Source of the DNA: Janthinobacterium agaricidamnosum | GTDB taxonomy: Bacteria; Pseudomonadota; Gammaproteobacteria; Burkholderiales; Burkholderiaceae_D | NCBI RefSeq assembly: GCF_003667705.1 | Contig: NZ_CP033019.1 | Coordinates: 6,076,001 to 6,140,000 of the forward strand | Direction: 5' to 3' | DNA: 64,000 nt | Shown: positions 47,378 to 64,000 of the stretch, piece after piece | How the letters are laid out: every line of letters starts with the position of its first letter | Numbering within the stretch: the stretch's first letter is position 1 | The notes under the pieces: generated by a model | What the model saw: the letters and a program-made list of their open reading frames with translations, nothing else | Databases searched by the model: none | Told to the model about the DNA's origin: nothing | Made by a program: the position numbers and the translations under genes

Positions 47378-47431
47378 GTTGCGTTTATTGCGTTTGCTTC
47401 GTAAGATTCAATGGAAAGTAGGGAGGATGCC

Positions 47432-47896
47432 ATGTCGAATGTGCTTGATCGTCTGGACAATAAAGAAGACCTGGAACTGGCGAAGGCGGCGCAGCGCTGC
47501 CTGGTGAGTGCGCTTGATCATTCTCGTGCCGTGCAGATTGCGGTTCTGGAAGAGGGCGCGCAGGACTTGGGTGATGCACCCTTGCTGCGTTTGCCGCCGA
47601 ATGTGTTGCGCCTGTTTGCCGATGTCTTAGGTACCTTGGCCCAAGGTAAGGCCGTGACAGTCATGCCGAAGGAACATGACGTGACGACACAGGAAGCGGC
47701 CATGTACCTGAACATGTCACGTGCCTACCTGGTGCGCCTGCTTGAGGCAGGGAAGATTCCCCATCATAAGGTGGGTACGCACAGGCGGCTGCGCTTTGAG
47801 GATGTGGTGCAGTACAAGGATGAGCGCAAACGGCGTTCGCAACAGGCCTTGCAGGCCTTGGCAGATCAGGCGCAGGAGCTTGAACTGGGGTACTGA
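47432..47896 (+). CDS. HTH (excisionase-type) antitoxin
   Basis: 154 residues. The first part (LDRLDNKEDLELAKAAQRCLVSALDH...) is helical. Residues of about 82-132 are a MerR/excisionase-like HTH (VTTQEAAMYLNMSRAYLVRLLEAGKIPHHKVGTHRRLRFEDVVQYKDE). This layout is common in antitoxins paired with PIN toxins. The ATG at 47432 follows GGGAGG at good spacing; an in-frame ATG at 47411 is less likely. Its stop overlaps the toxin start by 1 bp. Confidence 0.82.
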   Translation: MSNVLDRLDNKEDLELAKAAQRCLVSALDHSRAVQIAVLEEGAQDLGDAPLLRLPPNVLRLFADVLGTLAQGKAVTVMPKEHDVTTQEAAMYLNMSRAYLVRLLEAGKIPHHKVGTHRRLRFEDVVQYKDERKRRSQQALQALADQAQELELGY

Positions 47897-48474
47897 TGGC
47901 TGGATACTACCGTTACACTGCCGTCCTCGATGCCTGTGTGTTGTATCCGGCCCCCTTGCGCGATCTATTGCTGAGTTTGGCGGCGGACGGTATATTCAGC
48001 GCACGCTGGACAGCACGGATACAGGAAGAGTGGCAACGCAATTTGCTACTCAAGCGGCCTGATCTCGATCCTTCGGCATTGGCGCGCACCAGCGCGCTGA
48101 TGGACGAGGCGGTCGAAGACGGCGTGATCGAGTCGTATGAATACCTGATTGATGCCTTGGTCTTGCCCGATGCCGACGACCGGCACGTGCTGGCGGCAGC
48201 CATCGTGGGGCATGCGGACGCCATCGTCACGTTCAATCTTAAAGACTTCCCGGACGCGATCATGCGAGGGCACAACATTGAAGTCTTGCATCCCGATGAT
48301 TTTCTGGTGGCGCAGTATGAACTGGCCCCGATACGCATGCTCAGTGTCGTCAAGGAAAACCGGGCGCGATTGCGCAAACCGCCCAGATCCGCTGCCGAAT
48401 TGATTGCCACCTACGAAGCGCAAGGCTTGCCGCAACTGGGGAAGTTGCTGCATTCCGCAATTGCCTTGCCCTAG
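47896..48474 (+). CDS. PIN-domain ribonuclease toxin
   Basis: 192 residues. The PIN fold's metal-binding acids are recognisable: D11 in AVLDACVLYP, E43/E44 in RIQEEWQRN, the DADDRHVLAAAI cluster and the D of FNLKDFPDAI. The C-terminal part is an extra helical region. It should cleave RNA when not bound by the HTH protein encoded 1 bp upstream. Overlapping TGATG suggests translational coupling. The pair abuts tRNA-Arg, a common landing site for accessory DNA. Confidence 0.83.
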   Translation: MAGYYRYTAVLDACVLYPAPLRDLLLSLAADGIFSARWTARIQEEWQRNLLLKRPDLDPSALARTSALMDEAVEDGVIESYEYLIDALVLPDADDRHVLAAAIVGHADAIVTFNLKDFPDAIMRGHNIEVLHPDDFLVAQYELAPIRMLSVVKENRARLRKPPRSAAELIATYEAQGLPQLGKLLHSAIALP

Positions 48475-48635: not shown

Positions 48636-48703
48636 CGATATCAAAATTGATATCGAAACAGTGGAAAAATTGATTGGAGAGATTATCGCCCAGCCCCTAA
48701 GAT
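48636..48703 (+). promoter_or_regulatory. Arabinose-locus promoter 1 with shared dyad
   Basis: Dyad CGATATC-AAAATT-GATATCG at 48636-48655, exactly 13 nt, then ATTGATTGGA (48669-48678). Predicted -35 TTGGAG (48674-48679), 18-bp spacer, -10 TAAGAT (48698-48703). The dyad centre would sit near -64.5, where activators usually bind. It drives the TonB receptor gene. The same arrangement recurs at 55023 and 63215. Confidence 0.7.
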
Positions 48704-48768
48704 AAACGCCGAGCATGCGAACGACATGCAAGCAGCACAAAAAATATCAATACAATATCTGGAGATTC

Positions 48769-51426
48769 ATGATGCGCAACGCCACCGGCCCGCTCGCGGC
48801 CACTTTCCCTCGTCCATTCATGTTGAAGGCAGCCGTCGCGGCATTGGCCGGTATCGGCTTGCTGAGCACGGCTTCGGTCCGGGCGCAGGAGGCGGTGGCG
48901 GCCGATGCCGGTGCCGAGCCTGCCGCGGAAGTGGCTGTCGTGACCGTCAGCGGCGTGCGCCGTTCGGCGCAGAACTCGCAGCAGATCAAGATGCGCTCGG
49001 ACCAGGTCATCGATTCCATCGTCGCCGACGACATCGGCAAGTTCCCTGACAATAACGTGGCCGAGACCCTGGCGCGCATTTCCGGCATCCAGATCCGCCG
49101 CGATTCGGGCGAGGCTAGCGCCGTCATGATCCGCGGCTTGCGCGATGTCACGACCCTGCTCAACGGCCGCGAGCTGTTCACCACGACGGGCCGCTACGTC
49201 AACCTGGCCGACATTCCTGCCACGATGCTGCAGCGCGTCGACGTGTACAAGTCGCAAGGCGCGGACCAGGTCGAAGGCGGCGTGGCCGGCATCATCGACG
49301 TGCGCACGAATCGCCCGTTCGACTTCAAGGATTTCACGGCCAGCGTCAACACGCGCGCCGTCTACAGCGACAAATCGAAAGCCACGGACCCGAACATCAG
49401 CGGCATGGTGGCGAACCGCTGGAAGACGGGCATCGGCGAAGTGGGTGCCTTGCTGGGCCTGTCGCAGCAGCAGCACCGTTACCACGAAGAACGCGCGTTC
49501 AGTACGGCGCCCGTGGATAAAAGTTTCCTGTCGCCGGGCTTGACGGGGCCGGACCAGGTGGGTTTGTTGCCGATCAAGGGCGACCGCCGCCGCACGACCG
49601 CCAATGCCGTGCTGCAATGGCGTCCGAACGCCGACGTCGAACTGTACGCCGAAGGCATGGCCACGCGCTTCCTGCTCGACGCCGAGTCCGACTACTTTGT
49701 CGGCTTGCCGTGGTGGGGCACGCCCGTGTCGGCGACCAAGATTCCCGGCAGCAACCAGCTGCAAACCCTAACCTCGACCAACGTCAACACCATCATGTCG
49801 ACGCAGGCGAACAAGAACCAGACGAAGACGCACCAGTTTGCCGTGGGCGGCTTGTGGGATATCAACCCGGAATGGCGTTTCACGTCGGAAGTGGCCAGCA
49901 CCAAAAGCACTTATGCGTGGCGCAATCCGATTCTCGACGCCATCACCGTCGTGCCGAACGCCACCATCAATACCAACCAGAACGGCACCCTGCACGTCGA
50001 CTACACGGGCATCGATCTGCAAGACCCGTCGAATTATTATTTGAAGGGCTTTTTCGACCGCTACGGCAAGGACCAGGGCAGCTCGAACGATGTGCGCGCC
50101 GACCTGGCGTACACGCCGAGCGCCGGCGGCATCTTCAAGGAAATCAGCGTCGGCGTGCGCGGCGTCAAGCGCGAAGCCGAATCGATCAAGAGTTTCGAGG
50201 GCAATGCGGAAGCACCGGACGTGTCCGGCGCCGCGTTTCCGTTCAGCCGCCAGAGCGTGACCTCGATTCCGGGCCTCAATTGCCTGTCGGAACCGATGTC
50301 CGGCGGCGGCCCCGATTATGGCTTGAAGCAATGGTACACGCCGTGCGCCAGCTTCCTGCTCAATAACACGGGTACGATCCGCCAGGCCGTCACGGGCAGC
50401 AGCGCGGCGCGCGCCATGGACCCGGGCTCGTTCTTCAAGGATACGGAAAAGACGTATTCGATCTATACCAAGGCGAAGGTCGCCTTCAAGCTGGGTGCCT
50501 ACCCCGTCGATGGCACCGTGGGCGTGCGCGTCGTGCGCACGGAGCAAAGCTTGCAAGGCAACAGTTCGCAGGATGGCGTCTACACGCCCGTCATCAGCGA
50601 CACGGCCAGCACCGACGTGCTGCCGAGCGTGGCCCTGAAAATCAAGCTGCGCTCCGACCTGGTCGGCCGCTTCGCTGCCGGCCGCACCATCAGCCGCCCC
50701 GGCTTTGCACAGCTGAACCCGGGCGTGGCCCTCGTCAACTCGACGGAAACGGTGAAGGCGACGGGGGCGGGCGGCAATCCGAACTTGAAACCGGTGACGG
50801 GCGACAATGTCGATGCGGCCTTGGAATGGTATTTCGCGCCGGCCGGTTCCGTCACGGCCACCGTGTTCCACCACAAGTTCGACGGCTATATCCAGCAACG
50901 CATTGCCAGCGAAACCATCGGTGGCAAGACCTACGACGTGGACCGTCCGTACAACACGGCCGCCGGCAAGCTGCAGGGCCTGGAAATCGGCTACCAGCAG
51001 TTTTATGACGGCTTGCCCGGCATCCTGAGCGGCCTGGGCCTGCAGGCGAACGGCACCTACATGAGCGGCACCACCGACGACGAGACGGGCAGCCATGCCA
51101 TCACGGGCGTGTCGCGCTACTCGTACAACCTGGTGCTGCTGTATGAAAAAGATGCGTGGTCGGGCCGCCTGGCCTACAACTGGCGCTCGAAATTCATCGA
51201 CAGCTACAACCAGGGCGGCCCCGGCCTGGACTTGAAAGTGGCGCCGACGGCCCAGCTCGACGGTTCGCTGTCGTACAAGATCAACGAACAGTTCACGGTG
51301 ACCCTCGATGGGAATAACTTGCTCGACACCAAGTTCAAGGATTACTGGAACGAGCCGGGCGTGTATGCGCGCGATACGCGGCGCTATGACCGGACAGTTG
51401 GCGTATCACTGCGCTGGAAAATGTAA
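48769..51426 (+). CDS. TonB-dependent receptor, probably for arabino-oligosaccharides
   Basis: An outer-membrane receptor of about 885 residues, of the long TIGR01782-type carbohydrate group. A signal peptide (LSTASVRAQ) precedes a TonB-box-like VAVVTVSGVRR. The plug domain follows (DDIGKFPDNNVAETLARISGIQI; MIRGL), then a 22-strand barrel ending in the aromatic-rich KM terminus (TVGVSLRWKM). ATGs at 48769 and 48772 both follow CTGGAG. First gene of an operon with a symporter, GH43 and epimerase, so arabinan or arabinoxylan fragments are the likely ligand. Confidence 0.88.
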   Translation: MMRNATGPLAATFPRPFMLKAAVAALAGIGLLSTASVRAQEAVAADAGAEPAAEVAVVTVSGVRRSAQNSQQIKMRSDQVIDSIVADDIGKFPDNNVAETLARISGIQIRRDSGEASAVMIRGLRDVTTLLNGRELFTTTGRYVNLADIPATMLQRVDVYKSQGADQVEGGVAGIIDVRTNRPFDFKDFTASVNTRAVYSDKSKATDPNISGMVANRWKTGIGEVGALLGLSQQQHRYHEERAFSTAPVDKSFLSPGLTGPDQVGLLPIKGDRRRTTANAVLQWRPNADVELYAEGMATRFLLDAESDYFVGLPWWGTPVSATKIPGSNQLQTLTSTNVNTIMSTQANKNQTKTHQFAVGGLWDINPEWRFTSEVASTKSTYAWRNPILDAITVVPNATINTNQNGTLHVDYTGIDLQDPSNYYLKGFFDRYGKDQGSSNDVRADLAYTPSAGGIFKEISVGVRGVKREAESIKSFEGNAEAPDVSGAAFPFSRQSVTSIPGLNCLSEPMSGGGPDYGLKQWYTPCASFLLNNTGTIRQAVTGSSAARAMDPGSFFKDTEKTYSIYTKAKVAFKLGAYPVDGTVGVRVVRTEQSLQGNSSQDGVYTPVISDTASTDVLPSVALKIKLRSDLVGRFAAGRTISRPGFAQLNPGVALVNSTETVKATGAGGNPNLKPVTGDNVDAALEWYFAPAGSVTATVFHHKFDGYIQQRIASETIGGKTYDVDRPYNTAAGKLQGLEIGYQQFYDGLPGILSGLGLQANGTYMSGTTDDETGSHAITGVSRYSYNLVLLYEKDAWSGRLAYNWRSKFIDSYNQGGPGLDLKVAPTAQLDGSLSYKINEQFTVTLDGNNLLDTKFKDYWNEPGVYARDTRRYDRTVGVSLRWKM

Positions 51427-51539
51427 GTTGATCACATCGTAAAAAATCAAGGGCGTTGCATGGTTTCGGCCGGCAGCGCCCCTTGCGTTGCAGTTTGGCA
51501 GTCAGACACGATTCATCATCAAAAGAATGGACGGAAAGC

Positions 51540-52892
51540 ATGGAGACGCAAAAATTATCCACCGTTGAAAAGGTCGGCTTCGGCGCCGGCGACATGGCGC
51601 TCAATGTCGTCATCTCGTCGATGATGTTGATCATTACCTTTTTCTATACCGATATCTATGGCTTGAAAACCACGGACCTGGCACTGCTGTTCGTGGCCGT
51701 GAAAGTCATCGGCGCCATCGCCGACCTGGTCATGGGCCAGATCACCGATCGCTACAGCTTTGCCTCGGGCCGCTACCGCCCGTATCTGCTGTGGCTGGCC
51801 GTGCCGTACGGCGTCAGCGTCTTCTTCGTCTTCAGCACGCCCGAGTGGCAGTATGACGCCAAGCTGATCTGGGCATATTCGACGTATATCCTGATGACCA
51901 TCATGACGGCCGGCGTGGGCATCCCCTACATTTCCCTGATCAGCGGCCTGACCAGCGACCCGCAGGACCGCCTGTCGGCCAATGGCTACCGCCTGTTCTT
52001 CGCCAAGATCGGCGCCTTCATGGTGACCATCGTCGTGCCGATCCTGTCGCAGCGCTGGGGCGGCGGCAACCCGGCCGTCGGCTATCAGGCGGCCATGGCC
52101 GTGATGGCCGTCATGGGCGTGGCCCTGTTCCTGTTCTGCTATTTCTCCACCACCGAGCGCGTGGTGCACGTGGTGGAAAAGCAATCGTTGCTCGACCAAT
52201 TGAAAGTGCTGCTGCAGAACGACCAGTGGCTGGTGCTGTGCGGCGTGTGCGTCACGGGCACCATCGGTTATGTGGTGCGCGGCTCCGTCGCCATTTATTA
52301 CGCGAAATACTATCTGGGCGGCAATACGGAAACGGTGGCCGCCTTTTTGACCACGGGCGTGGTGGCCGCCATTCTGGCCATGATCGCCTCGACCTGGATC
52401 ACCAAGTTCTACTGCAAGGTCAAGCTGTTCCGCTACACGCAGATCGGCGTCGCGCTGATCAGCCTGGCCATCTATTTCTTCGTCAAACCGAGCGACACCG
52501 TGCTGGCCTTCGCCCTGTATTTCCTGCTCTCCTTTGTCGTGGACTTGCATGCGCCCGTGTTCTGGTCGGCCATCGCGGAAACCATCGATTACGGTCAAGT
52601 CAAGACGGGCAAGCGCGTCTCCGGCTTTGCCTTTGGCGGCATTTCCGTCTGCCAGAAGGCGGGCATGGCGGTGGCAGGTGGCCTGGTGGGCGTGCTGCTC
52701 GCGTATTTCGACTACCAGCCCAACCATGAGCAAACGCAATTCGCCCTGAACGGCATCGCACTGATGCTGTCGATCATCCCCGGCTTCTTCCACTTGTTGA
52801 TGGGCTTGCTGATGTTCAAGTACCGCATCAGCGACAGCTATTACACGGGTGTGAAAGTGGAAATGCACAAGCGTGGCTTTGTTGCCACGTAA
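51540..52892 (+). CDS. GPH-family glycoside/pentoside symporter (MFS)
   Basis: A 450-residue inner-membrane protein with about 12 helices. KVGFGAGDMALNVVISSMMLIITFFYTDIYGL and IADLVMGQITDRYSFASGRYRPYLL are the glycoside-pentoside-hexuronide:cation symporter signatures. It should import the oligosaccharides or pentosides delivered by the TonB receptor encoded just upstream. The ATG at 51540 is chosen, with GGAAAG upstream; the longer frame from 51456 lacks conserved residues. Confidence 0.9.
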   Translation: METQKLSTVEKVGFGAGDMALNVVISSMMLIITFFYTDIYGLKTTDLALLFVAVKVIGAIADLVMGQITDRYSFASGRYRPYLLWLAVPYGVSVFFVFSTPEWQYDAKLIWAYSTYILMTIMTAGVGIPYISLISGLTSDPQDRLSANGYRLFFAKIGAFMVTIVVPILSQRWGGGNPAVGYQAAMAVMAVMGVALFLFCYFSTTERVVHVVEKQSLLDQLKVLLQNDQWLVLCGVCVTGTIGYVVRGSVAIYYAKYYLGGNTETVAAFLTTGVVAAILAMIASTWITKFYCKVKLFRYTQIGVALISLAIYFFVKPSDTVLAFALYFLLSFVVDLHAPVFWSAIAETIDYGQVKTGKRVSGFAFGGISVCQKAGMAVAGGLVGVLLAYFDYQPNHEQTQFALNGIALMLSIIPGFFHLLMGLLMFKYRISDSYYTGVKVEMHKRGFVAT

Positions 52893-52916
52893 GAACAATT
52901 GAATGGAGTAAGCAAC

Positions 52917-53864
52917 ATGGCAGACGTCTTGAAACCGCTGATCGAACAGCGCGCCGACCCGCATATCTACCGCCACAGCGACGGCTATTATTACTTTACG
53001 GCGTCCGTGCCGCAGTACGACCGCATCGAACTGCGCCGCGCCGACAGCATCGCCGGCCTGGCCGACGCGCAAACGGTCGACGTGTGGCACAAGCCGGACA
53101 CGGGGCCGTACAGCGAACTGGTGTGGGCGCCGGAGCTGCACTTCAACCAGGGCGCCTGGTATGTGTATTTCGCCGCCGCGCCGAGCCGCGAAATCAAACA
53201 TAAACTGTTCCAGCACCGCATGTATGCGATCCGCAATGCCAACGCCAACCCCTTGGAAAGCGAGTGGGAATTCATGGGCCAGATCGATACGGGCATCGAC
53301 ACCTTCTGCCTGGACGCCACCACGTTCGAACACGACGGCGTGCTGTACTACCTGTGGGCGCAGAAGGATGTGGCCATCGAGGGCAACTCGAACCTGTACA
53401 TCGCACCGATGGCCACGCCGTGGCAGCTGGCCGGCCCGCCCGTGATGCTGAGCAAGCCGGAATTCGACTGGGAAATCCGCGGCTTCTGGGTCAATGAGGG
53501 ACCCTCCGTGCTGAAACGCAATGGCAAGATATTCATCAGCTATTCGGCCAGCGCCACCGATGAAAACTATGCGATGGGCCTGCTGTGGGCCGATGACACG
53601 GCCGACCTGCTCGATCCGGCAGCGTGGACGAAGTCGCCCGCGCCTGTGTTTGCCACCTGCTACGAGCACGGCATCTACGGCCCCGGCCACAACAGTTTTA
53701 CCACGGCCGCCGATGGCGATGGCGTATTGCTGGTGTACCATGCCCGCACCTACACGGAAATCGTCGGCGACCCGCTGTGGAACCCGGACCGCCACACGTT
53801 TGTCAAACCGCTGCGCTGGGATGCGCAGGGCATGCCCGTGTTTGGCCGCTCCTCGACCCTGTAA
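52917..53864 (+). CDS. Glycoside hydrolase family 43 (cytoplasmic arabinofuranosidase type)
   Basis: A 315-residue five-bladed propeller glycosidase. Family 43 acids can be placed: base D14 (RADPHIYRH), pKa modulator D133 (FCLDATTFEHDG) and acid E194 (WVNEGPSVLK). No signal peptide, so it acts on sugars after import by the neighbouring symporter. Alpha-L-arabinofuranosidase is the likely activity; beta-xylosidase is possible. ATG at 52917 with GGAG upstream. 24 bp after the symporter gene. Confidence 0.85.
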   Translation: MADVLKPLIEQRADPHIYRHSDGYYYFTASVPQYDRIELRRADSIAGLADAQTVDVWHKPDTGPYSELVWAPELHFNQGAWYVYFAAAPSREIKHKLFQHRMYAIRNANANPLESEWEFMGQIDTGIDTFCLDATTFEHDGVLYYLWAQKDVAIEGNSNLYIAPMATPWQLAGPPVMLSKPEFDWEIRGFWVNEGPSVLKRNGKIFISYSASATDENYAMGLLWADDTADLLDPAAWTKSPAPVFATCYEHGIYGPGHNSFTTAADGDGVLLVYHARTYTEIVGDPLWNPDRHTFVKPLRWDAQGMPVFGRSSTL

Positions 53865-53880
53865 CTCCGGACCCGACGCC

Positions 53881-54951
53881 ATGACCCCAGTTGATTCTGT
53901 TTCAGTGACGCAAGCGCCGTTCGGCGTCCTGCCCGATGGCCAGCAAGTGACGGCCTTTACCCTGACGAACCGCCAGGGCATGCAAGTGAAAGTGCTGGAC
54001 TTTGGCGCCATCATCAGCGAAATCCACGTGCCTGACCGCGATGGCCGCTTTGCCGACGTGGTGCTAGGTTTTGATCGCCTCGAGCCGTATCTGGCCAACA
54101 GTGCGTTTCTGGGCGCCGTTATCGGCCGTTACGGCAACCGCATCGCCGAGGGCCGTTTCAGTCTCGACGGCAAGGAATATCAGCTGGCCGTCAACAACGC
54201 ACCGAATCACTTGCATGGCGGCAATCAGGGCTTTCACCAGGTCATGTGGCAGGCTGAACCGTTCACGAAGGACGATGCCGTGGGCATCACGTTCACGCGC
54301 AGCAGCCCGCACGGTGAAGATGGCTACCCGGGCAAGCTCGACGTCACCTTGACCTATGCACTGGACAACGACAATGCGCTGAGCCTGCGCTACCACGCCG
54401 TCACGGACCAGGCCACGCCCATCAACTTGACTAACCACAGCTATTTCAATCTGGCGGGGCAGGGCACTATCCTCGGCCACGCGCTGTCCGTCAACGCGGA
54501 CCGCTACCTGCCCGTCGATGCGGGGTCTATCCCCACGGGGGAACTGGCGGACGTGGCGGGCACGCCGTTCGACTTGCGCCAGAGTACCGTCATCGGCGAC
54601 AACATAGCCCTGCCGCATGAACAGATCCGCATCGGGCGCGGCTATGACCATAACTTTGTGCTCAATCAAAAGCCGGGCCAGCAGCTGAACCTGGCCGCCA
54701 CCGTGCGCGATCCCGCCTCGGGTCGGGTGATGCAGGTGTACACGCAGGAACCGGGCATCCAGTTTTATTCCGGCAATTTCCTCGACGGCAGCCAGCACGG
54801 CAAGCAGGGCCCCATCCTTTACCGCGGCGCGCTGTGCCTGGAAACCCAGCATTTCCCGGATTCGCCGAACCAGTCGCATTTCCCGAACACCATTTTGCGC
54901 CCGGGCGAGGTGTATCAGACGGAAACGGTCTATCGGTTTTCCGCAGAATAA
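53881..54951 (+). CDS. galM: Aldose 1-epimerase (mutarotase)
   Basis: A 356-residue GalM-type beta-sandwich enzyme interconverting alpha and beta anomers. Motifs: GRYGNRIAEGRFSLDGKEY, HLHGGNQGFHQV, the catalytic histidine in NLTNHSYFNLAG, and the catalytic glutamate in ALCLETQHFPDSPN. Here it would speed release of the right L-arabinose anomer for dehydrogenase attack. 16 bp after the GH43 gene; last of the first operon. Confidence 0.92.
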   Translation: MTPVDSVSVTQAPFGVLPDGQQVTAFTLTNRQGMQVKVLDFGAIISEIHVPDRDGRFADVVLGFDRLEPYLANSAFLGAVIGRYGNRIAEGRFSLDGKEYQLAVNNAPNHLHGGNQGFHQVMWQAEPFTKDDAVGITFTRSSPHGEDGYPGKLDVTLTYALDNDNALSLRYHAVTDQATPINLTNHSYFNLAGQGTILGHALSVNADRYLPVDAGSIPTGELADVAGTPFDLRQSTVIGDNIALPHEQIRIGRGYDHNFVLNQKPGQQLNLAATVRDPASGRVMQVYTQEPGIQFYSGNFLDGSQHGKQGPILYRGALCLETQHFPDSPNQSHFPNTILRPGEVYQTETVYRFSAE

Positions 54952-55022
54952 TCGTCGCAGACCCCAAAAACCTTCCACGCCCTGCCGCCATGCGCCCGCA
55001 GGGCGTTTTCATTGGGGCATGC

Positions 55023-55090
55023 CGATATCGTTTTCGATATCGGAACGCATTAAAAATTGATTGGAAAGGCATGGCAGGATTCTTTAGTAT
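55023..55090 (+). promoter_or_regulatory. Arabinose-locus promoter 2 with shared dyad
   Basis: Dyad CGATATC-GTTTTC-GATATCG at 55023-55042 (extends to CCG/CGG), 13 nt, ATTGATTGGA (55056-55065). Predicted -35 TTGGAA (55061-55066), 18-bp spacer, -10 TAGTAT (55085-55090). It precedes the arabinonate dehydratase gene with a predicted leader of about 55 nt. Confidence 0.72.
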
Positions 55091-55151
55091 TCCAACATCG
55101 CTGCCCGGGCCGACGACCTTAGATCCGGCATGGCACAACCAGGAGAATGGC

Positions 55152-56894
55152 ATGTCTGAGACAAAAAAGAAGGTAGCCCTGCGCTCGGCCGAGTGGTTCG
55201 GCTCGCAGGACAAGAACGGCTTCATGTACCGCAGCTGGATGAAAAACCAGGGCATACCTGACCACGAATTTCACGGCAAGCCCATCATCGGCATCTGCAA
55301 TACCTGGTCCGAACTGACGCCCTGCAACGCGCATTTCCGCCAGCTGGCCGAACACGTCAAGCGCGGCATCCTGGAAGCGGGCGGTTTCCCCGTGGAATTC
55401 CCCGTCTTCTCGAACGGCGAATCGAATCTGCGCCCGACAGCCATGCTGACGCGCAACCTGGCCTCGATGGACGTGGAAGAATCGATCCGCGGCAATCCGA
55501 TGGACGCCGTCGTGCTGCTGGTCGGCTGCGACAAGACGACACCGGCATTGCTGATGGGCGCGGCCAGCGTCGACATTCCCACCATCGTCGTCAGCGGCGG
55601 CCCCATGCTGAACGGCAAACTCAATGGCAAGGACATCGGTTCCGGCACGGCCGTATGGCAGCTGCACGAGCAGATGAAGGCGGGATCGATCACCTTGCAC
55701 CAGTTCATGTCGGCCGAATCGGGCATGTCGCGCTCGGCCGGTACCTGCAACACCATGGGCACGGCTTCGACGATGGCCAGCATGGCCGAAGCGTTGGGCA
55801 CGTCCTTGCCGCACAACGCGGCCATCCCAGCCGTCGATTCGCGCCGCTACGTGCTGGCGCACATGTCGGGCATCCGCATCGTTGAAATGGTGCACGAAGA
55901 CCTGCGCCTGTCGAAAGTGCTGACGCGCGAGGCGTTTGAAAACGCCATCAAGGTCAACGCGGCCATCGGCGGCTCGACCAATGCCGTGATCCACCTGAAG
56001 GCGATTGCCGGCCGCATCGGCGTGCCTTTGGAACTGGAAGACTGGACCAAGACGGGCCGCGGCACGCCGACCATCGTCGACTTGCTGCCGTCGGGCCGTT
56101 TCCTGATGGAAGAGTTTTACTACGCGGGCGGCTTGCCGGCCGTGATACGCCGCCTGGGCGAGGGCGATTTGCTGCCGCACAAGAACGCGCTGACCGTCAA
56201 TGGCAAGTCGCTGTGGGACAACTGCGTCGAAGCGCCGATCTACAACGATGAAGTGGTGCGCACCCTGGACAATCCATTGCTGGCCGATGGCGGCATTTGC
56301 GTGTTGCGCGGCAACCTGGCACCGCGCGGCGCCGTGCTGAAACCGTCGGCCGCCTCGCCGCATTTGATGCAGCACCGGGGCAAGGCTGTCGTGTTCGAGG
56401 ATTTCGAGCACTATAAATCGCGCATCCTCGATCCGGATCTCGACGTCGACGCGAACTCCGTGCTGGTCATGAAGAACTGCGGCCCGAAAGGTTATCCGGG
56501 CATGGCGGAAGTGGGCAATATGGGCTTGCCGCCGAAACTGCTGGCGCAAGGCATCACCGACATGGTGCGCATTTCGGATGCGCGCATGAGCGGCACGGCC
56601 TACGGCACCGTCGTGCTGCACGTGGCGCCGGAAGCCATGGCGGGCGGCCCGCTGGGCATTGTGCGCGACGGCGACATGATCGCCCTCGATTGCCACGCCG
56701 GCAGCCTGAACATCGACATCAGCGACGCGGAAATCGCCGAGCGCCTGGCGGCCCGCGAGCTGGGCAGCGCGCCCGGACCGAAGAGCGGCTACCAGCAGCT
56801 GTACATCGAACACGTGTTGCAGGCCGATGAAGGCTGCGATTTCGACTTCCTGGTCGGCAATCGCGGTTCCGCCGTGCCGCGCCACTCACATTAA
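55152..56894 (+). CDS. araC: L-arabinonate dehydratase (IlvD/Edd family)
   Basis: Dehydrates L-arabinonate to 2-keto-3-deoxy-L-arabinonate. The 580-residue protein carries the three [2Fe-2S] cysteines C58 (WSELTPCNAHF), C126 (LVGCDKTTPA) and C199 (AGTCNTMGTA), at the spacing known for rhizobial L-arabinonate dehydratase. The C-terminal catalytic serine region (SDARMSGTAYGTVVLH) is present. Start ATG with CAGGAG upstream. First of the second operon, so pentonate rather than dihydroxy-acid or gluconate-6-P is the likely substrate. The symbol follows the Azospirillum naming, not the E. coli regulator. Confidence 0.88.
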   Translation: MSETKKKVALRSAEWFGSQDKNGFMYRSWMKNQGIPDHEFHGKPIIGICNTWSELTPCNAHFRQLAEHVKRGILEAGGFPVEFPVFSNGESNLRPTAMLTRNLASMDVEESIRGNPMDAVVLLVGCDKTTPALLMGAASVDIPTIVVSGGPMLNGKLNGKDIGSGTAVWQLHEQMKAGSITLHQFMSAESGMSRSAGTCNTMGTASTMASMAEALGTSLPHNAAIPAVDSRRYVLAHMSGIRIVEMVHEDLRLSKVLTREAFENAIKVNAAIGGSTNAVIHLKAIAGRIGVPLELEDWTKTGRGTPTIVDLLPSGRFLMEEFYYAGGLPAVIRRLGEGDLLPHKNALTVNGKSLWDNCVEAPIYNDEVVRTLDNPLLADGGICVLRGNLAPRGAVLKPSAASPHLMQHRGKAVVFEDFEHYKSRILDPDLDVDANSVLVMKNCGPKGYPGMAEVGNMGLPPKLLAQGITDMVRISDARMSGTAYGTVVLHVAPEAMAGGPLGIVRDGDMIALDCHAGSLNIDISDAEIAERLAARELGSAPGPKSGYQQLYIEHVLQADEGCDFDFLVGNRGSAVPRHSH

Positions 56895-56906
56895 GCGGAG
56901 ACCATT

Positions 56907-57899
56907 ATGCTGTTGCTGCAATTTACGAATGAACATGGCGGCCGCCTGGTCGGCCTGCTGCAAGACGACCAGATCCGCGTCATTGAAGGCTACAACACGA
57001 CGTATGCGCTGGCGCAAGACGCCATCCGCAAGCGTATCAATCTGGCGGAACTGGTCAACGCCAGCGTCGGCAACGCCACGCATGCGTATGCGGACGTGGC
57101 CGCCAGCGGCCGCCTGCTGCCGCCGCTCGACCATGCCGACGAGGCGCACTGCTACGTGACGGGCACGGGCCTGACCCATTTGGGCAGCGCCGGCGCGCGC
57201 GACGCCATGCACAAGAAGATCGGCGGCGACGCCGAATCCTTGAGCGACTCGATGAAAATGTTCCGCCTGGGCGTGGAAGGCGGCAAGCCCGCTGACGGCA
57301 CGGCCGGCGCCCAGCCCGAGTGGTTCTACAAGGGCGACGGCTCCATCGTGCGCGCTGGCGGCCAGCCGCTGCGCATGCCGGACTTTGCCCTCGATGGCGG
57401 CGAAGAGCCGGAAATCGCCGGCCTGTACGTGATCGGCGACGACGGCCAGCCCTACCGGGTCGGCTACGCCATCGGCAATGAATTCTCGGATCACGTGACG
57501 GAACGCCAGAACTATCTGTACCTGGCCCACTCGAAGCTGCGCGTCTGCAGCGTGGGCCCGGCCCTGCTGGTGGGCGAATTGCCCGCGCACATAGACGGCA
57601 CCTCGCGCGTGCTCGACGCGGCCGGCAATGTGCGCTGGGAAAAAGCGTTCGTCAGCGGCGAAGACAATATGTCGCACACGATCGCCAACCTCGAGCACCA
57701 TCACTTCAAGTATCCGCTGTTCAAGCGCCCTGGCGACGTGCACGTGCACTTCTTCGGCACGGCCACCCTGAGCTTTGCCGATGGCGTGAGCGTGGCGCCG
57801 GGCGAAACCTTTGAAATCGAAGCGCCGGCCTTTGGCCCTGCCTTGCGCAACCGCCTCGACGTCTTCCCAACCGAATTTGCGAAAGTGAGCACATTATGA
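56907..57899 (+). CDS. AraD1/GguC family protein, putative 2-keto-3-deoxy-L-arabinonate dehydratase
   Basis: A 330-residue protein of the fumarylacetoacetate-hydrolase superfamily. The N-terminus [21 protein letters not shown] and the middle [26 protein letters not shown] are characteristic of AraD1/GguC. The metal acids fit E184/E-type residues of GNEFSDH and [11 protein letters not shown]. It should convert the 2-keto-3-deoxypentonate to alpha-ketoglutarate semialdehyde. Classical AraD is a DHDPS-type aldolase, so this is the alternative type; the activity is inferred from context. 12 bp after the dehydratase; overlaps the next gene by 4 bp. Confidence 0.8.
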
Positions 57900-59473
57900 G
57901 TTTCAATATCACCGGTGATGCATTGATCGGCGGCGTCGCCGTCAAGGGCAATGGCGGCTCCTTCGAAGCGTGGGACCCGGCCGCGCGCGCACACATCGCG
58001 CCCGCCTTCCACATGGTTGACGTAGCGCAAATCGACGAAGCTTGCCGTCTGGCGCAAGCCGCGTTCGACCCGTTCCGCGCCACCAGCGATGCGCAGCGCG
58101 CCGACTTCCTCGACACCGTCGCCGCGCAAATCGGCGAACTGGGCGATGACTTGATCGTGCGCGCCATGACGGAAAGCGGCTTGCCTCGCGCGCGCCTGGA
58201 AGGCGAACGCGGCCGCACCGTCGGTCAATTAAAACTGTTCGCCGGCTTGCTGCGCGAAGGCTCGTGGACCGATGCGCGTATCGACAGCCCGCTGCCGGAC
58301 CGCGTGCCGCCGCGTCCTGACTTGCGCTTGCGCATGATCGGCCTGGGCCCCGTCGCCGTGTTTGCGGCCAGTAACTTCCCGCTGGCCTTCTCCGTGGCCG
58401 GCGGCGATACGGCCTCGGCCCTGGCTGCCGGTTGCCCTGTCGTCCTGAAAGCCCATTCGGCCCATCCGGGCACGTCCGAGCTGGTGGCGCGCGCCATCGT
58501 GAAAGCGATTGCCATCTGCAAGCTGCCGGCAGGCGTGTTTGCCTTGCTGACGGGTACGGGCAATGGCATCGGCCAGGCCTTGGTCGCCCATCCGGCAATT
58601 CGGGCTGTCGGTTTCACGGGTTCGCGTTCGGGCGGCATCGCCCTGATGAAGGTGGCGGCGGAACGTCCGCAGCCGATCCCCGTCTATGCGGAAATGAGCA
58701 GCATCAACCCCGTGTTTGTGCTGCCGCAAGCCCTGGCCGCCCGTGGCGCGGCCATTGCCAGCGGTTTTGCCGCGTCGCTGACGATGGGCGTGGGCCAGTT
58801 CTGCACCAATCCCGGCCTCGTGCTGGGCCTGGAAGGTGCCGACTTCACGGCCTTTGCCGCCGCCGCCGCCGAAGCGCTGGCGCCGGCACCGGCCGCCACC
58901 ATGTTGACGGCTGGTATCGCCAGCAGCTATGCCAAGGGCGTCGCCGCGCTGGCGCAGCACGCCGATGTGACGCCGCTGGTGCAAAACACGGGCGAGGAAG
59001 GCAAGGGCGCCGCCGCCCTGTTCGTCACCTCGGGCGAGGCCTTCCTGGCCAGGCACGATCTGCGCGACGAAGTGTTCGGTCCCGCCTCCCTGCTGGTGGC
59101 GTGCCGCGACATGGAGCAAATGCTGGCGATCACGGAAAGCCTGGAAGGCCAGCTGACGGCCACTCTGCAGATGGATGCGGGCGACCTGGAAGACGCGCAC
59201 CGTTTGCTGCCCGTGCTGGAACGCCGCGTGGGCCGCATCCTGGCCAACGGTTTCCCGACGGGCGTGGAAGTGTCGACGGCGATGGTGCACGGCGGCCCGT
59301 TCCCGGCCACCTCGGACGGCCGCAGCACCTCGGTAGGCACGGCGGCCATCAACCGCTTCCTGCGCCCCGTGTCCTACCAGAACCTGCCGCAGGACTTGCT
59401 GCCGGAGTCGCTGCGCGATGATAATCCGCTCAGTATCTGGCGCCGCAAGGACGGCGTGTTGGGCAAGGAATAA
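57896..59473 (+). CDS. Alpha-ketoglutaric semialdehyde dehydrogenase (NADP-type ALDH)
   Basis: A 525-residue aldehyde dehydrogenase. NAD(P)-binding [25 protein letters not shown] and [11 protein letters not shown], general base E in [14 protein letters not shown] and nucleophile C in [12 protein letters not shown] are all present. This class, with MSSINP and FCTNPG, oxidises alpha-ketoglutarate semialdehyde to alpha-ketoglutarate, the last step of the non-phosphorylating pentose pathway. ATGA overlap with the AraD1 gene implies coupled translation. Confidence 0.88.
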
Positions 59474-59548
59474 CAACACGGCGAGCCGCATATCGAATGC
59501 GGTACGCTGTGGTGCACGTGTACATAAAAATAAACAGGTGGAGACAAG

Positions 59549-60316
59549 ATGAAGCAATTGGCGAAATATGGCAGCTTGCAGGGCAAGCGCGTGTTCATCA
59601 CGGGCGGCGGCAGCGGCATCGGCGAATCCCTGGTGGCGGAGTTTGCCGCCCAGGGCGCGCTGGTGGCGTTTGTCGACATCGCCGTGGAAGCGAGCGAGGC
59701 CCTGTGCCGCCGCCTGGCTGAAGCGGGCCTGACGGCGCCACTGTTCCGCCATTGCGACATCACGGATATTGCTTCCCTGCAAGCCGTCATGGCGGAACTG
59801 GCGCAGAAGCTGGGCGACTTCGATATCCTCGTCAACAATGCCGCCAACGACCAGCGCCACCAGGCGCAGGACGTCACCCTGGAATACTGGAACGAGCGCA
59901 TTGCGATCAATCAACGTCCCATGTTCTTCACCTGCCAGGCCGTGTTCGAGGGCATGAAGCGCAGGGGCGGCGGCTCCATCATCAACGTCAGCTCGATTTC
60001 CTGGCACATGAAGTCGGGCGGCTATCCTGTGTACGCCACCACCAAGGCTGCCGTTGTGGGCCTCACGCGGGGCCTGGCGCGCGATTACGGCGCTCACAAT
60101 ATCCGCGTCAACACGGTCACGCCCGGCTGGGTCATGACGCAGCGCCAGATCGACCTGTGGGTCGACGACGCGGCCGAAGCGGAAATCAAGAAAAGCCAGT
60201 GCTTGCCCAATAAACTGATGCCACAGGACATCGCCGCCATGGTGTTGTTCCTTGCATCGGACGACGGCGCGATGTGCTCCAGTCAAGAATTCATCGTCGA
60301 CGCCGGCTGGGTCTGA
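59549..60316 (+). CDS. SDR-family sugar dehydrogenase (L-arabinose 1-dehydrogenase candidate)
   Basis: A 255-residue short-chain dehydrogenase: cofactor motif ITGGGSGIGE (about residues 18-27), NNAAN, catalytic S in NVSSISWHMK and YATTK. Relatives include galactose/arabinose 1-dehydrogenases. In this operon it is the only candidate for the first step, oxidation of L-arabinose to L-arabinono-lactone. No separate lactonase was found in the window. GTGGAGACAAG precedes the ATG. 75 bp after the ALDH gene. Confidence 0.82.
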   Translation: MKQLAKYGSLQGKRVFITGGGSGIGESLVAEFAAQGALVAFVDIAVEASEALCRRLAEAGLTAPLFRHCDITDIASLQAVMAELAQKLGDFDILVNNAANDQRHQAQDVTLEYWNERIAINQRPMFFTCQAVFEGMKRRGGGSIINVSSISWHMKSGGYPVYATTKAAVVGLTRGLARDYGAHNIRVNTVTPGWVMTQRQIDLWVDDAAEAEIKKSQCLPNKLMPQDIAAMVLFLASDDGAMCSSQEFIVDAGWV

Positions 60317-60399
60317 CAAAACGTCCAGGGCGTTGTTGCAGCGTCTCGCCGTACTAGCGTACTGTCTTCGACGCTGCGCCTAGCCCTGGGCGTTTTGTC
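60315..60399. repeat. 85-bp intergenic palindromic repeat (element C)
   Basis: Arms GACAAAACG / CGTTTTGTC, then CCAGGGC / GCCCTGG and AGCGTC / GACGCT, closing on CGTACTAGCGTAC. It starts inside the TGA of the SDR gene. Its reverse complement contains TAGTACGGCGAGACGCTGC, similar to the core of the element at 7548-7668. It may slow or end transcription between the SDR and GH51 genes; no T-run beyond TTTT. Confidence 0.7.
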
Positions 60400-60548
60400 G
60401 GCTGCGGACTGATCCGCGGCCAAACCGCTACCTCCATTGCAGCACCGCTCCTGCCGCCCCAACCCCGCGGCAGGAGAGGCATCGTCACATCCAGATTGCG
60501 CCGGGGTTGACCCCGGCCCTTGCTTTTCACTAAAAAACAGGAGACAGC

Positions 60549-62099
60549 ATGAAATTCATCCATACCAGCATCGTGGCCCTCAGCCTGGCCATGGCCGTCG
60601 GCAGCGCTTTTGCCGCGCCCGTCAATGTCACCATCGACGTGGCCAGGCCCGGTTCCGTGATCAACAAGAACATCTACGGCCAGTTCGCCGAACATCTGGG
60701 CACCGGCATCTACGAAGGCATGTGGGTGGGGCCGGAGTCCAGCATTCCGAACACCAAGGGCTGGCGCAATGACGTGCTGGGTGCGCTGAAACAGTTGCAC
60801 GTGCCGCTGGTGCGCTGGCCGGGCGGCTGCTTTGCCGATGAATACCACTGGAAGGATGGCATCGGCGCGCGCGCCCAGCGCCCGACCAAGGTCAACACCA
60901 ACTGGGGCGGCGTGGAAGAGTCGAACGCCGTCGGCACGCATGAATTCTTCGACCTGGCCGAGTTGCTGGGCGCGCAGACCTATATCAACGGCAACCTCGG
61001 TTCCGGCACGCCGCAGGAAATGTCCGAATGGCTCGAATACATGACGTCGGACAGCAAATCGACCCTGGCCGAGTTGCGCCGCAAGAATGGCCGCGCGCAG
61101 CCGTACAAGGTCGATTACTTTGGCATCGGCAATGAAGCGTGGGGTTGCGGCGGCAACATGCGCCCGCAGTACTATGCCGACCTGTACAAGCACTATCACA
61201 CCTTCATGAAGACGCCGGAAAGCGCGCGCCCGAAATTCATCGCCAGCGGCGGCAATGACGACGACATCAGCTGGTCCAGCACCCTGAGCCGCGAGATCAA
61301 GCCGAACATGATGGATGCCATCAGTTTCCACTACTACACGGTGCCGACCGGTGTGTGGGAAAAGAAGGGCGCGGCCACGGGCTTTGGCGAAAATGAGTGG
61401 ATTTCCACCCTGAGCCGTACCCTGCGCATCGATAGCTTGATCAAGAACAATCTCGCCGCCATCGACAAGAACGACCCGTCGAAAAAGACGGGCCTGTACG
61501 TCGATGAATGGGGCACCTGGTACGACGTGGAGCCGGGCACCAACACGGGTTTCCTGTTCCAGCAAAACAGCTTGCGCGATGCGCTCGTCGCCGCCCTGAA
61601 CTTCAATATCTTCCATGCCCACGCGGACAGGGTGCGCATGACGAATATCGCGCAAATGGTCAACGTGCTGCAGGCCATGATCATCACGGACAAGGACAAA
61701 TATTTCCTCACGCCTACGTATCACGCGTTTGAAATGTACGTGCCGTTTCAAGATGCCACGTCCTTGCCGGTTGCCATTAGCGGCAATGGCAAGTACAGTC
61801 TGGGCAAGGTCAGCATTCCCGAAGTGAGCGCCTCGGCCGCGCGCGGCAAGGATGGCAAGGTGTACTTGTCGCTGGTCAACACGAACCCGCACAAGGCCGT
61901 CGACGTCAGCGTGGCCCTGGCCGGCAAGCCGGCGGCCAAGGTCACGGGCCGCGTGCTGACCGCCGGCAAGATGGATGCCGTCAACAGCTTTGCGCAGCCG
62001 CAAGCCGTGCAGCCGGTGGCGTTCAATGCCCAGGCGCAGGGCGGCAAGCTGACCGTGTCGGTGCCCGCCAAGGCGGTGGTGGTGGTGGCGGTCGAGTAA
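60549..62099 (+). CDS. Exported GH51 alpha-L-arabinofuranosidase
   Basis: A 516-residue retaining glycosidase that releases terminal L-arabinose from arabinan and arabinoxylan. Signal peptide ends GSAFA (about residue 22). The barrel holds the acid/base E196 in FGIGNEAWGCGG and nucleophile E320 in LYVDEWGTWYD. YGQFAEHLGTGIYEG and RWPGGCFADEYHW are GH51 signatures. The C-terminal beta-sandwich completes the family layout. CAGGAGACAGC precedes the ATG. Secretion to the periplasm distinguishes it from many cytoplasmic GH51 enzymes. Confidence 0.93.
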   Translation: MKFIHTSIVALSLAMAVGSAFAAPVNVTIDVARPGSVINKNIYGQFAEHLGTGIYEGMWVGPESSIPNTKGWRNDVLGALKQLHVPLVRWPGGCFADEYHWKDGIGARAQRPTKVNTNWGGVEESNAVGTHEFFDLAELLGAQTYINGNLGSGTPQEMSEWLEYMTSDSKSTLAELRRKNGRAQPYKVDYFGIGNEAWGCGGNMRPQYYADLYKHYHTFMKTPESARPKFIASGGNDDDISWSSTLSREIKPNMMDAISFHYYTVPTGVWEKKGAATGFGENEWISTLSRTLRIDSLIKNNLAAIDKNDPSKKTGLYVDEWGTWYDVEPGTNTGFLFQQNSLRDALVAALNFNIFHAHADRVRMTNIAQMVNVLQAMIITDKDKYFLTPTYHAFEMYVPFQDATSLPVAISGNGKYSLGKVSIPEVSASAARGKDGKVYLSLVNTNPHKAVDVSVALAGKPAAKVTGRVLTAGKMDAVNSFAQPQAVQPVAFNAQAQGGKLTVSVPAKAVVVVAVE

Positions 62100-62164
62100 A
62101 CCTGCCGATTTTGAGGTATCCAGCCGGCCCGCATGACGGGCCGGCTGGCCATGTGGAGAACACG

Positions 62165-63190
62165 ATGCAATTTTCGACAATGATGGCCTTGGCGGCCATG
62201 CTTGCCTTCAGCCCCGTCCAGGCGGCCCAGGTCAGCGTGCACGACCCCGTGATGGCCAAGGAAGGCGACACGTATTATTTGTACAGCACGGGTCCCGGCA
62301 TCACCTTCTACAGCTCGAAGAATATGCGCGACTGGCAGCCGGAAGGGCGCGTCTTCGCGGGCCAGCCGACCTGGGCCAAGACGGCCGCACCGTCGTTTGA
62401 CGATCATATCTGGGCGCCCGACGTGCAATTCCATGACGGCAAATATTACCTGTACTACTCGGTGTCCGGCTTCGGCAAGAACACCTCCGGCATCGGCGTG
62501 ACCGTCAATACCACCCTGAATCCCCGCTCGTCCGATTACCGCTGGGTCGACCAGGGCATGCTGCTGCAATCGGTGCCCGAGCGCGACGAGTGGAACGCCA
62601 TCGATTCGAACATCGTCACCGATGCCAAGGGCACGCCGTGGATGGCCTTCGGCTCGTTCTGGAACGGCATCAAGCTGGTGAAACTCAACGCGGACTGGAA
62701 AACCATTGCGGAACCGCAAGAGTGGCATTCGCTGGCGCGCCGCGTACCGCTGCCGCCACGGGCGGGCGAATTCAAGCCCGCGCCCGAGGAAATCGAGGCG
62801 CCGTTCATCTTTCAGCGCGGCAATGAATACTTCCTGTTCGTCTCCTGGGGCTTGTGCTGCCAGAAGGAAAAAAGCACGTATCACCTGGCCGTGGGCCGTG
62901 CCAAGAGCGTGACGGGGCCGTATCTGGACAAGGATGGCCGCGACATGGCGCAGGGCGGCGGCACGGTGGTATTGAAAGGCGACAAGGATTGGCAGGGACT
63001 GGGCCACAACAGCGCCTACACGTTTGACGGCAAGGATTACCTGGTGCTGCACGCCTACGAAACGGCGGACAACTATTTGCAGAAGCTCAAGATATTGCCC
63101 ATGACGTGGGACAAGGACGGCTGGCCGCAGGTGGACCCGCGCGACTTGAACCGCTACCAGAGCCGCGAATTGCCGGCCGCCAAACGGTAA
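62165..63190 (+). CDS. Exported GH43 endo-alpha-1,5-L-arabinanase
   Basis: A 341-residue secreted propeller enzyme that cuts the 1,5-arabinan backbone. The signal peptide ends FSPVQA (residue 20). Catalytic residues: base D27 (VSVHDPVMAKEGDTYYLY), modulator D147 (WNAIDSNIVTD) and acid E211 (PEEIEAPFIFQ). The sequence HIWAPDVQFHDGKYYLYYSVSGFGKNTSGIG is highly typical. The ATG at 62165 has TGGAGAACACG upstream; the frame before it is spurious. 65 bp after the GH51 gene. Confidence 0.92.
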   Translation: MQFSTMMALAAMLAFSPVQAAQVSVHDPVMAKEGDTYYLYSTGPGITFYSSKNMRDWQPEGRVFAGQPTWAKTAAPSFDDHIWAPDVQFHDGKYYLYYSVSGFGKNTSGIGVTVNTTLNPRSSDYRWVDQGMLLQSVPERDEWNAIDSNIVTDAKGTPWMAFGSFWNGIKLVKLNADWKTIAEPQEWHSLARRVPLPPRAGEFKPAPEEIEAPFIFQRGNEYFLFVSWGLCCQKEKSTYHLAVGRAKSVTGPYLDKDGRDMAQGGGTVVLKGDKDWQGLGHNSAYTFDGKDYLVLHAYETADNYLQKLKILPMTWDKDGWPQVDPRDLNRYQSRELPAAKR

Positions 63191-63214
63191 ACGGACCAGG
63201 TGATGGGCGGCAGG

Positions 63215-63282
63215 TGATACGTAAATCGGTATCGCAAGCGAAAAAGAATTGATTGGATGGCTATGTTGCTTTCTCCTACCAT
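63215..63282 (+). promoter_or_regulatory. Arabinose-locus promoter 3 with shared dyad
   Basis: Imperfect dyad TGATACG-TAAATC-GGTATCG at 63215-63234, 13 nt, ATTGATTGGA (63248-63257). Predicted -35 TTGGAT (63253-63258), 18-bp spacer, -10 TACCAT (63277-63282). It precedes the ABC transporter binding-protein gene with a predicted leader of about 63 nt. Confidence 0.65.
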
Positions 63283-63351: not shown

Positions 63352-64000
63352 ATGAAATTGACACGCCGCACACTCCTCGCCAGCGCCATGCTGCTGGCCG
63401 CTTCCGCCACCACCTTCGCTACCTCGTCCGCGTTTGCCGCCAAGCCCCTCGTCATGGGCTTTTCGCAGGTAGGCGCCGAGAGCGAGTGGCGCACCGCCAA
63501 TACCGTCTCCATCAAGGAGGCGGCCAAGAAAGATGGCGTCACTCTGAAATTTGCCGATGCGCAGCAAAAACAGGAAAACCAGGTCAAGGCCCTGCGCTCG
63601 TTCATCGCGCAAAAGGTCGACGTGATCGCCTTCTCGCCGGTCGTGGAATCGGGCTGGGATACGGTGTTGCGCGAAGCCAAGGCTGCCAAGATTCCCGTCA
63701 TCCTGACCGACCGCGCTGTCAACGTGGCCGATAAATCGCTGTACGTGACCTTCATCGGTTCCGACTTCGTGGAAGAGGGCCGCCGCGCCGGTCAATGGCT
63801 GCTGGACTATGCCAAGAAAACCCCGGACGCGCAACTGAACATCGTCGAACTGCAGGGCACGGTCGGTTCCGCGCCGGCCATCGATCGCAAGGAAGGCTTC
63901 CAGGAAGTCATCGGCAAGAATCCCAAGCTGAAGATCATCCGTTCGCAAACGGGCGACTTTACGCGTGCCAAGGGCAAGGAAGTGATGGAAGCGTTCCTCA
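63352..64000 (+). CDS. Sugar ABC transporter periplasmic binding protein, YtfQ-like (partial, 3' end outside)
   Basis: At least 216 residues, cut by the window end. A signal peptide (MKLTRRTLLASAMLLAAS..., ending AFA) precedes a type I periplasmic binding fold. KPLVMGFSQVGAESEWRTANT, DAQQKQENQVKALRSFIAQKVDVIAFSPVVESGWD and VELQGTVGSAPAIDRKEGF match the galactofuranose-binding protein YtfQ closely. In this locus it probably binds L-arabinose. CTGGAGACAAGA precedes the ATG. Permease and ATPase genes are expected just downstream. Confidence 0.9.
   Translation, partial: MKLTRRTLLASAMLLAASATTFATSSAFAAKPLVMGFSQVGAESEWRTANTVSIKEAAKKDGVTLKFADAQQKQENQVKALRSFIAQKVDVIAFSPVVESGWDTVLREAKAAKIPVILTDRAVNVADKSLYVTFIGSDFVEEGRRAGQWLLDYAKKTPDAQLNIVELQGTVGSAPAIDRKEGFQEVIGKNPKLKIIRSQTGDFTRAKGKEVMEAFL

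Follow-up and report, generated by a model that had tools for sequence, protein, structure and literature searches.

The window analysed here is a stretch of 64,000 nt of Janthinobacterium agaricidamnosum (contig NZ_CP033019.1, positions 6,076,001-6,140,000; genome of 6.36 Mb), in which three sets of sugar-utilization genes are each preceded by the same promoter cassette: a dyad of the regulatory binding site (RBS) type, an A-tract with the motif ATTGATTGGA, a GATAT-like element and a -10-like hexamer. In the following list of features (window coordinates), the dyads rest on the sequence, scans and shuffles, the A-tract and GATAT-like elements on the sequence and the site alignment, the hexamers on the sequence, the alignment and a shift control, and the gene sets on open reading frames (ORFs) and profile matches.

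48636..48655, plus strand: dyad CGATATC-N6-GATATCG, RBS-type, 5' of the TonB receptor/GPH symporter/GH43/epimerase genes
48664..48678, plus strand: A-tract and ATTGATTGGA, presumed activation half-site overlapping a TGGANN -35
48681..48685, plus strand: position of the GATAT-like element, letters GATTA (imperfect)
48698..48703, plus strand: -10-like TAAGAT at the fixed cassette offset
48772..54951, plus strand: target genes 1, TonB-dependent receptor, GPH symporter, GH43 and aldose 1-epimerase, presumably a single operon
55023..55042, plus strand: dyad, RBS-type, 5' of the dehydratase genes
55051..55065, plus strand: A-tract and ATTGATTGGA, second site
55068..55072, plus strand: GATAT-like element, letters GGCAT
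55085..55090, plus strand: -10-like TAGTAT
55152..63190, plus strand: target genes 2, IlvD-type dehydratase, GguC/AraD1 family, aldehyde dehydrogenase, short-chain dehydrogenase/reductase (SDR), GH51 and GH43, presumably a single operon
63215..63234, plus strand: weaker dyad TGATACG-N6-GGTATCG, 5' of the ABC importer genes
63243..63257, plus strand: A-rich tract and ATTGATTGGA, third site
63260..63264, plus strand: GATAT-like element, letters GCTAT
63277..63282, plus strand: -10-like TACCAT
63352..64000, continuing past the window, plus strand: target genes 3, substrate-binding protein of a YtfQ-like sugar ABC importer

The three dyads, the 13-nt gap that follows them and ATTGATTGGA had been described in an initial annotation of this DNA, and their coordinates and letters are exactly as given there; the hexamers TAAGAT, TAGTAT and TACCAT likewise start 22 nt after TTGATT at all three sites. 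At up to three mismatches, the pattern YGATAYS-N6-GRTATCG-N13-ATTGATTGG gives three matches in the window against none in 100 dinucleotide shuffles, and four in the whole genome (reversed control, 0). ATTGATTGGA alone occurs three times genome-wide, every time at these sites (reversed control, 1). The shared cassette is real and well above chance. It is also longer than first described, as it includes the A-tract and the GATAT-like element, and two further copies are found in the genome beyond the window. Single-strand folding of the three window dyads gave stable hairpins for two of them, which has no bearing on the argument.

The fourth copy (genome 6020079-6020120, minus strand, 1 mismatch) precedes the genes of a ChvE/GguA/GguB transporter, each product of which scores above its NCBIfam cut-off, and its TAGTAT lies 22 nt after GTGATT, the spacing seen in the window. 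The fifth (genome 6030067-6030133, 1 mismatch) was found alongside the other four with a pattern that includes the -10; at up to three mismatches this pattern has five genomic copies, each 5' of sugar genes, and none in the reversed control. It precedes genes for a DGOK kinase, an IlvD-type dehydratase that exceeds the L-arabinonate dehydratase cut-off, an SMP-30 lactonase and a KDPG-type aldolase, which would form a DeLey-Doudoroff-type operon. Matches at unrelated genes had been named beforehand as grounds for abandoning the idea of a regulon, and the genome scan returned matches only at sugar operons. The three targets proposed at first (receptor/symporter, dehydratase pathway and ABC importer) were retained, while the set itself grew to at least five promoters by addition of chvE and the D-galactose-type operon. 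Several near-identical stretches within one 15-kb region might also point to a recently copied promoter or repeat element with no joint regulation. Among the five sites of this genome, pairwise identity reaches 77% in the motif columns and only 27% in the remaining 36 columns, near the random level, so their likeness is not that of copied DNA; the pattern, moreover, persists across genera. A repeat or duplicated promoter was rejected on this low identity between the elements, and the copied-element explanation retains practically no probability.

Cassette architecture was studied in 41 sites (up to three mismatches; loci chosen around LysR genes or motif matches), reduced to 33 once near-identical ones were removed. 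Conservation extends to columns that played no part in the selection: A occupies positions 28-32 in 19, 32, 33, 23 and 32 of the 33 sites, a GATAT-like element is conserved at positions 45-49, and TAnnAT stands at positions 62-67 (T 33/33, A 32/33, A 28/33, T 32/33). In shift controls, TAnnAT was found at offset 62 in 28/33 sites and, elsewhere between offsets 42 and 79, in no more than two per offset, and the form GNYAT at offset 45 in 20/33 and in at most one at other offsets. The dyad reads T-N12-A in all 33, both positions being part of the selecting pattern. The -35 is likely TGGANN within ATTGATTGGA, with a spacing of 17 nt to the -10; TTGATT was rejected for this role because its 22-nt spacing is too long. 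A dyad and a conserved second site, the activation binding site (ABS), at fixed distance from TAnnAT reproduce the layout of LysR-activated promoters (near -65 and -35), with the start site placed by prediction. In the available text of one source, this layout comprises an RBS with T-N11-A near -65 and an ABS near -35 that has no known conserved motif, and LysR proteins so arranged, such as PnpM/PnpR, activate with inducer (PMC5603801). The present sites resemble it in how far the two elements lie from the predicted start and differ in carrying T-N12-A instead of T-N11-A and in the strong conservation of the ABS.

A LysR gene is found about 5 kb to the right of the window (genome 6145012-6145953; locus L004:6013-6954), after the YtfQ-like binding protein, an ATPase, two permeases and a GH43 gene, in the direction where the initial annotation had advised looking for a regulator, right of 64000. 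The 313-aa protein has an N-terminal HTH_1 domain (PF00126, 1.6e-20) and a C-terminal LysR_substrate domain (PF03466, 1.7e-32), and no second relative of it was detected in this genome at 1e-20. Apart from one small ORF resembling a helix-turn-helix (HTH) protein, no convincing regulator is present among ORFs of at least 150 aa in 40000-64000, in keeping with what had first been noted, and a regulator inside the window was rejected on these grounds. Database searches with the LysR protein yielded mostly unnamed or 'LysR family' proteins among the best 120 of 2788 matches; a PDB sequence search listed 20 LysR-family sequences (best 1.4e-20), with no sugar regulator by name among them.

Across 294 sampled genomes of the family, the motif is present in 155 (445 matches by the per-genome table, against 4 in reversed controls) and a close LysR homologue (E<=1e-120) in 122, eight weaker ones having been set aside. 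The motif accompanies the close homologue in 118 of these 122 genomes and occurs in 37 of the 172 without it (Fisher p about 6e-43, a value inflated by relatedness); with the looser homologue set (E<=1e-70) the figures are 121/130 and 34/164. In the window's genus, the LysR gene is present in 25 of 27 genomes, which carry 2 to 6 sites each, against 1 and 0 sites in the two that lack it. A different regulator of AraC, LacI or GntR type might own the dyad, leaving the LysR gene a bystander, and a candidate exists in XylR, an AraC/LacI-type protein encoded between the chvE and dgoK cassettes. The motif nevertheless tracks the LysR homologue over the 294 genomes, adjoins the LysR gene in several genera of two classes and recurs, as a dyad, ahead of the LysR gene itself, so that ownership by another regulator is very improbable. 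A xylose regulon was likewise considered and rejected; XylR adjoins xylose-type genes.

The cassette was followed further with a weight matrix of 68 columns applied to 80 named loci collected by similarity to the LysR protein, some of them from genomes also in the training set. Matches of at least 14 bits occur in 66/80 loci, while reversed loci never exceed 5.7 bits; the matrix matches LysR loci in Massilia, Duganella, Undibacterium, Collimonas and Herbaspirillum. In 16 of the 80 a cassette of at least 30 bits lies just upstream of the LysR gene on the opposite strand as a divergent promoter (Undibacterium, Janthinobacterium, Herbaspirillum, Collimonas, Glaciimonas and others). Cassettes in the same position also accompany distant LysR homologues in Burkholderia cenocepacia (47.3 bits) and Paraburkholderia (35.3 bits; both records are unannotated there), Caballeronia (30.3 bits), a comamonad (24.2 bits) and Azospirillum, where 7 to 16 bits are reached at three promoters in each of three loci; 40 Markov shuffles per distant locus all scored below the observed values. 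The dyad, an ATTGG-type core and the GATAT-like part are still recognisable in the Azospirillum sites. Order-wide, a scan at 2 mismatches matched 9/300 genomes, three in the family and six outside it, and the six score 38.9 (L207), 15.2 (L211) and below 3 bits (the other four), the strict pattern thus being mostly confined to the family. The activator of LysR type first proposed, with a dyad near -64.5 and TTGATTGG as a possible second contact, is supported by the LysR gene, the co-occurrence of homologue and motif and the divergent cassettes; amendments concern the number of promoters, the likely -35 and the box, which is T-N12-A and not the textbook T-N11-A.

Downstream genes were surveyed at 134 matches of at least 30 bits, redundant genomes included, by taking the reference gene that best matched the frames opening shortly after the site. 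They comprise a YtfQ-like binding protein in 62 cases, ChvE in 20, the dehydratase in 12, the SDR in 3 and four others once each, and none of the reference genes in 33; two of the 12 dehydratase cases and the sole ABC ATPase case begin roughly 1 kb farther on. Fourteen sites were read further, six leading to DGOK-like and three to porin-like genes (by eye, except for the DGOK gene of this genome). As separate observations, cassette pairs facing apart with about 65-150 bp between them are found at L082, L154, L169 and L170, some of them between chvE and dehydratase genes, and a 35-bit cassette-like site at L087:9517 (minus strand) in another genus lies by a LysR homologue of 47% identity and before a xylose-type operon gene, possibly an operator of related type used by a paralogous regulator.

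The dyad is also present in the promoter of the LysR gene itself. In this genome, TGATATCGATCATGATATGA overlaps a TATGAT immediately 5' of the LysR start codon, and GATATC half-sites are seen clustered ahead of the gene (L004:5954-6015). In 51/80 loci the 110 bp ahead of the LysR gene contain a dyad with at most 2/12 mismatches, against 5/400 random windows; 13 of the 51 are the divergent cassette's own dyad and 38 are not. The TATGAT of this genome ends 6 nt short of the ATG, and in 37/80 loci a TATGAT or TATCAT lies 5-8 nt before the LysR start, a closeness by which the transcript may be leaderless; a dyad so placed suggests that the gene is autorepressed. Lying over the -10 of the LysR gene, this dyad has a repressive look, and a protein bound at ATTGATTGGA and the GATAT-like element, both of which overlap the -35 region, could keep polymerase away. 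The same LysR protein might therefore mainly repress the operons and be released by sugar, the elements near -35 being an operator and not activation sites. An activator-dependent promoter is a better fit for a dyad near -64.5 that keeps a fixed phasing to the -10 and for a -35 as poor as TGGANN, and LysR proteins with this RBS/ABS layout activate with inducer, as far as the available text of PMC5603801 goes. General repression is hence an unlikely account, if the least unlikely of the three alternatives considered.

Comparable systems are known. GbpR, the galactose-binding protein regulator, controls chvE when sugars are present (PMC4086400, available part), and a gbpR cluster holds an arabonate dehydratase and a galactose dehydrogenase, with a gbpR-sbpA locus in Roseobacter litoralis (PMC3141670, available part). 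A LysR-type AraR has been predicted for arabinose importer and oxidative pathway genes in Halomonas (PMC5507952, available part). The accessible text of PMC10107873 and PMC8376909 describes no closer system, and no earlier description of the cassette was found in the openly licensed PubMed Central (PMC) literature as far as its accessible text extends. The present system shares with GbpR of Agrobacterium a LysR-type protein and a chvE-type transporter as target, here a predicted one, the kinship being traced here via the Azospirillum protein only, and with the GbpR, Roseobacter litoralis and Azospirillum loci the neighbouring arabonate dehydratase and sugar dehydrogenase genes. The LysR gene of the Azospirillum chvE/arabinose locus, which we take to be gbpR (the records say only LysR family), sits between lactonase/DHDPS-type/aldehyde dehydrogenase/ytfQ genes and chvE-mmsAB. 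Its product finds the present LysR gene as best match in this genome (7e-66; next 1e-22), and the reverse search, on the plasmid record only, gave a match of 39.5% identity. Plasmid records with a relative numbered 87, of which 10 were examined. Three Azospirillum loci add to the likeness, each with a similar cassette at three promoters. The present system differs from GbpR-type systems in its identity of about 39%, in a regulator that is not beside chvE and in a regulon widened to a TonB receptor, a GPH symporter, GH43/GH51 enzymes and the dgoK operon; the cassette is present at the chvE promoter, and control of chvE/gguAB is predicted. The Halomonas AraR is alike in being of LysR type, with predicted control of an arabinose importer and an oxidative pathway, whereas no cassette was seen at one Halomonas locus (41% identity; apparently not among the strains of PMC5507952).

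With high probability, the three window sites belong, as promoters of activator type, to one regulon under the LysR protein encoded at 6145012-6145953, a homologue of that of the Azospirillum chvE locus. The system is best read as a GbpR-type LysR regulon for L-arabinose/D-galactose use, of a known kind, with a distinctive, tightly conserved operator. One dimer of a LysR tetramer would bind the T-N12-A dyad centred near -64.5 (the RBS) and the second would occupy TTGATTGG-N3-GATAT across the -35 (the ABS). The intervening A-tract, where the DNA is probably bent in advance, would assist. With the sugar or an early sugar derivative bound, the protein would recruit RNA polymerase at a weak -35 TGGANN and the fixed TAnnAT, and by binding the dyad over its own -10 it would limit its own synthesis. 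Predicted targets cover the uptake of arabinans and arabinosides, the oxidation of L-arabinose, an importer of YtfQ type, chvE-gguAB and a galactose operon of DeLey-Doudoroff type. Because L-arabinose shares its ring configuration with D-galactose, it makes sense that a single sensor should respond to both.

A number of observations weigh against this interpretation. The usual (not universal) LysR box T-N11-A lies within only 2/33 dyads, and only 17/33 sites have an exact TGGA where the -35 is proposed. Co-occurrence is partly confounded by relatedness; the motif was not found in 4/122 genomes with a close LysR homologue, and nine genomes without one carry at least two pattern matches. There is no match of at least 14 bits in 14/80 LysR loci (at least 8 of them outside Oxalobacteraceae by title) and no cassette in the Halomonas, Niveispirillum and Phaeobacter loci examined, and in Azospirillum TAnnAT is not exact at the fixed offset, the -10 being TATTGT, shifted one base, or unclear. 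The window dehydratase falls just under the L-arabinonate dehydratase cut-off (835.7 vs 882), and the SDR is nearest to a D-xylose dehydrogenase model, below that model's cut-off, so the assignment to L-arabinose rests on the GguC/AraD1, GH51 and GH43 neighbours, which suggest this sugar as the one handled by the window genes. The aldehyde dehydrogenase (window 57896-59473) is far under the cut-off of all 9 NCBIfam models listed and may be a diverged enzyme for the last pathway step.

On a broader scale, the chances are about even that a single rigid LysR promoter cassette, with its T-N12-A dyad, A-tract, conserved activation site fused to the -35 and fixed -10, has persisted with some drift in alpha- and betaproteobacteria as a signature of L-arabinose/D-galactose sensing that groups pathways by stereochemistry, with the regulator in many species expressed from an autorepressed leaderless promoter that has the same dyad over its -10. 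For plant-cell-wall sugar use in Janthinobacterium relatives, the analysis gives a regulator, a list of five target operons and an operator model specific enough for genome scanning. It also offers a LysR system with a highly conserved activation site, an element said to lack a known motif (PMC5603801, available text), and with such conservation simple promoter variants can serve to test where the dimers sit and what the A-tract contributes.

To the left of the first site, small overlapping genes (window 47411-48474) encode, judged by eye, an HTH/excisionase-like protein (47411-47896) and a PIN-like protein, possibly a toxin-antitoxin pair. Further left, two neighbouring 691-aa proteins (window 41695-43770 and 44014-46089), by eye M13-type zinc peptidases, are alike in sequence and likely represent a tandem duplication.

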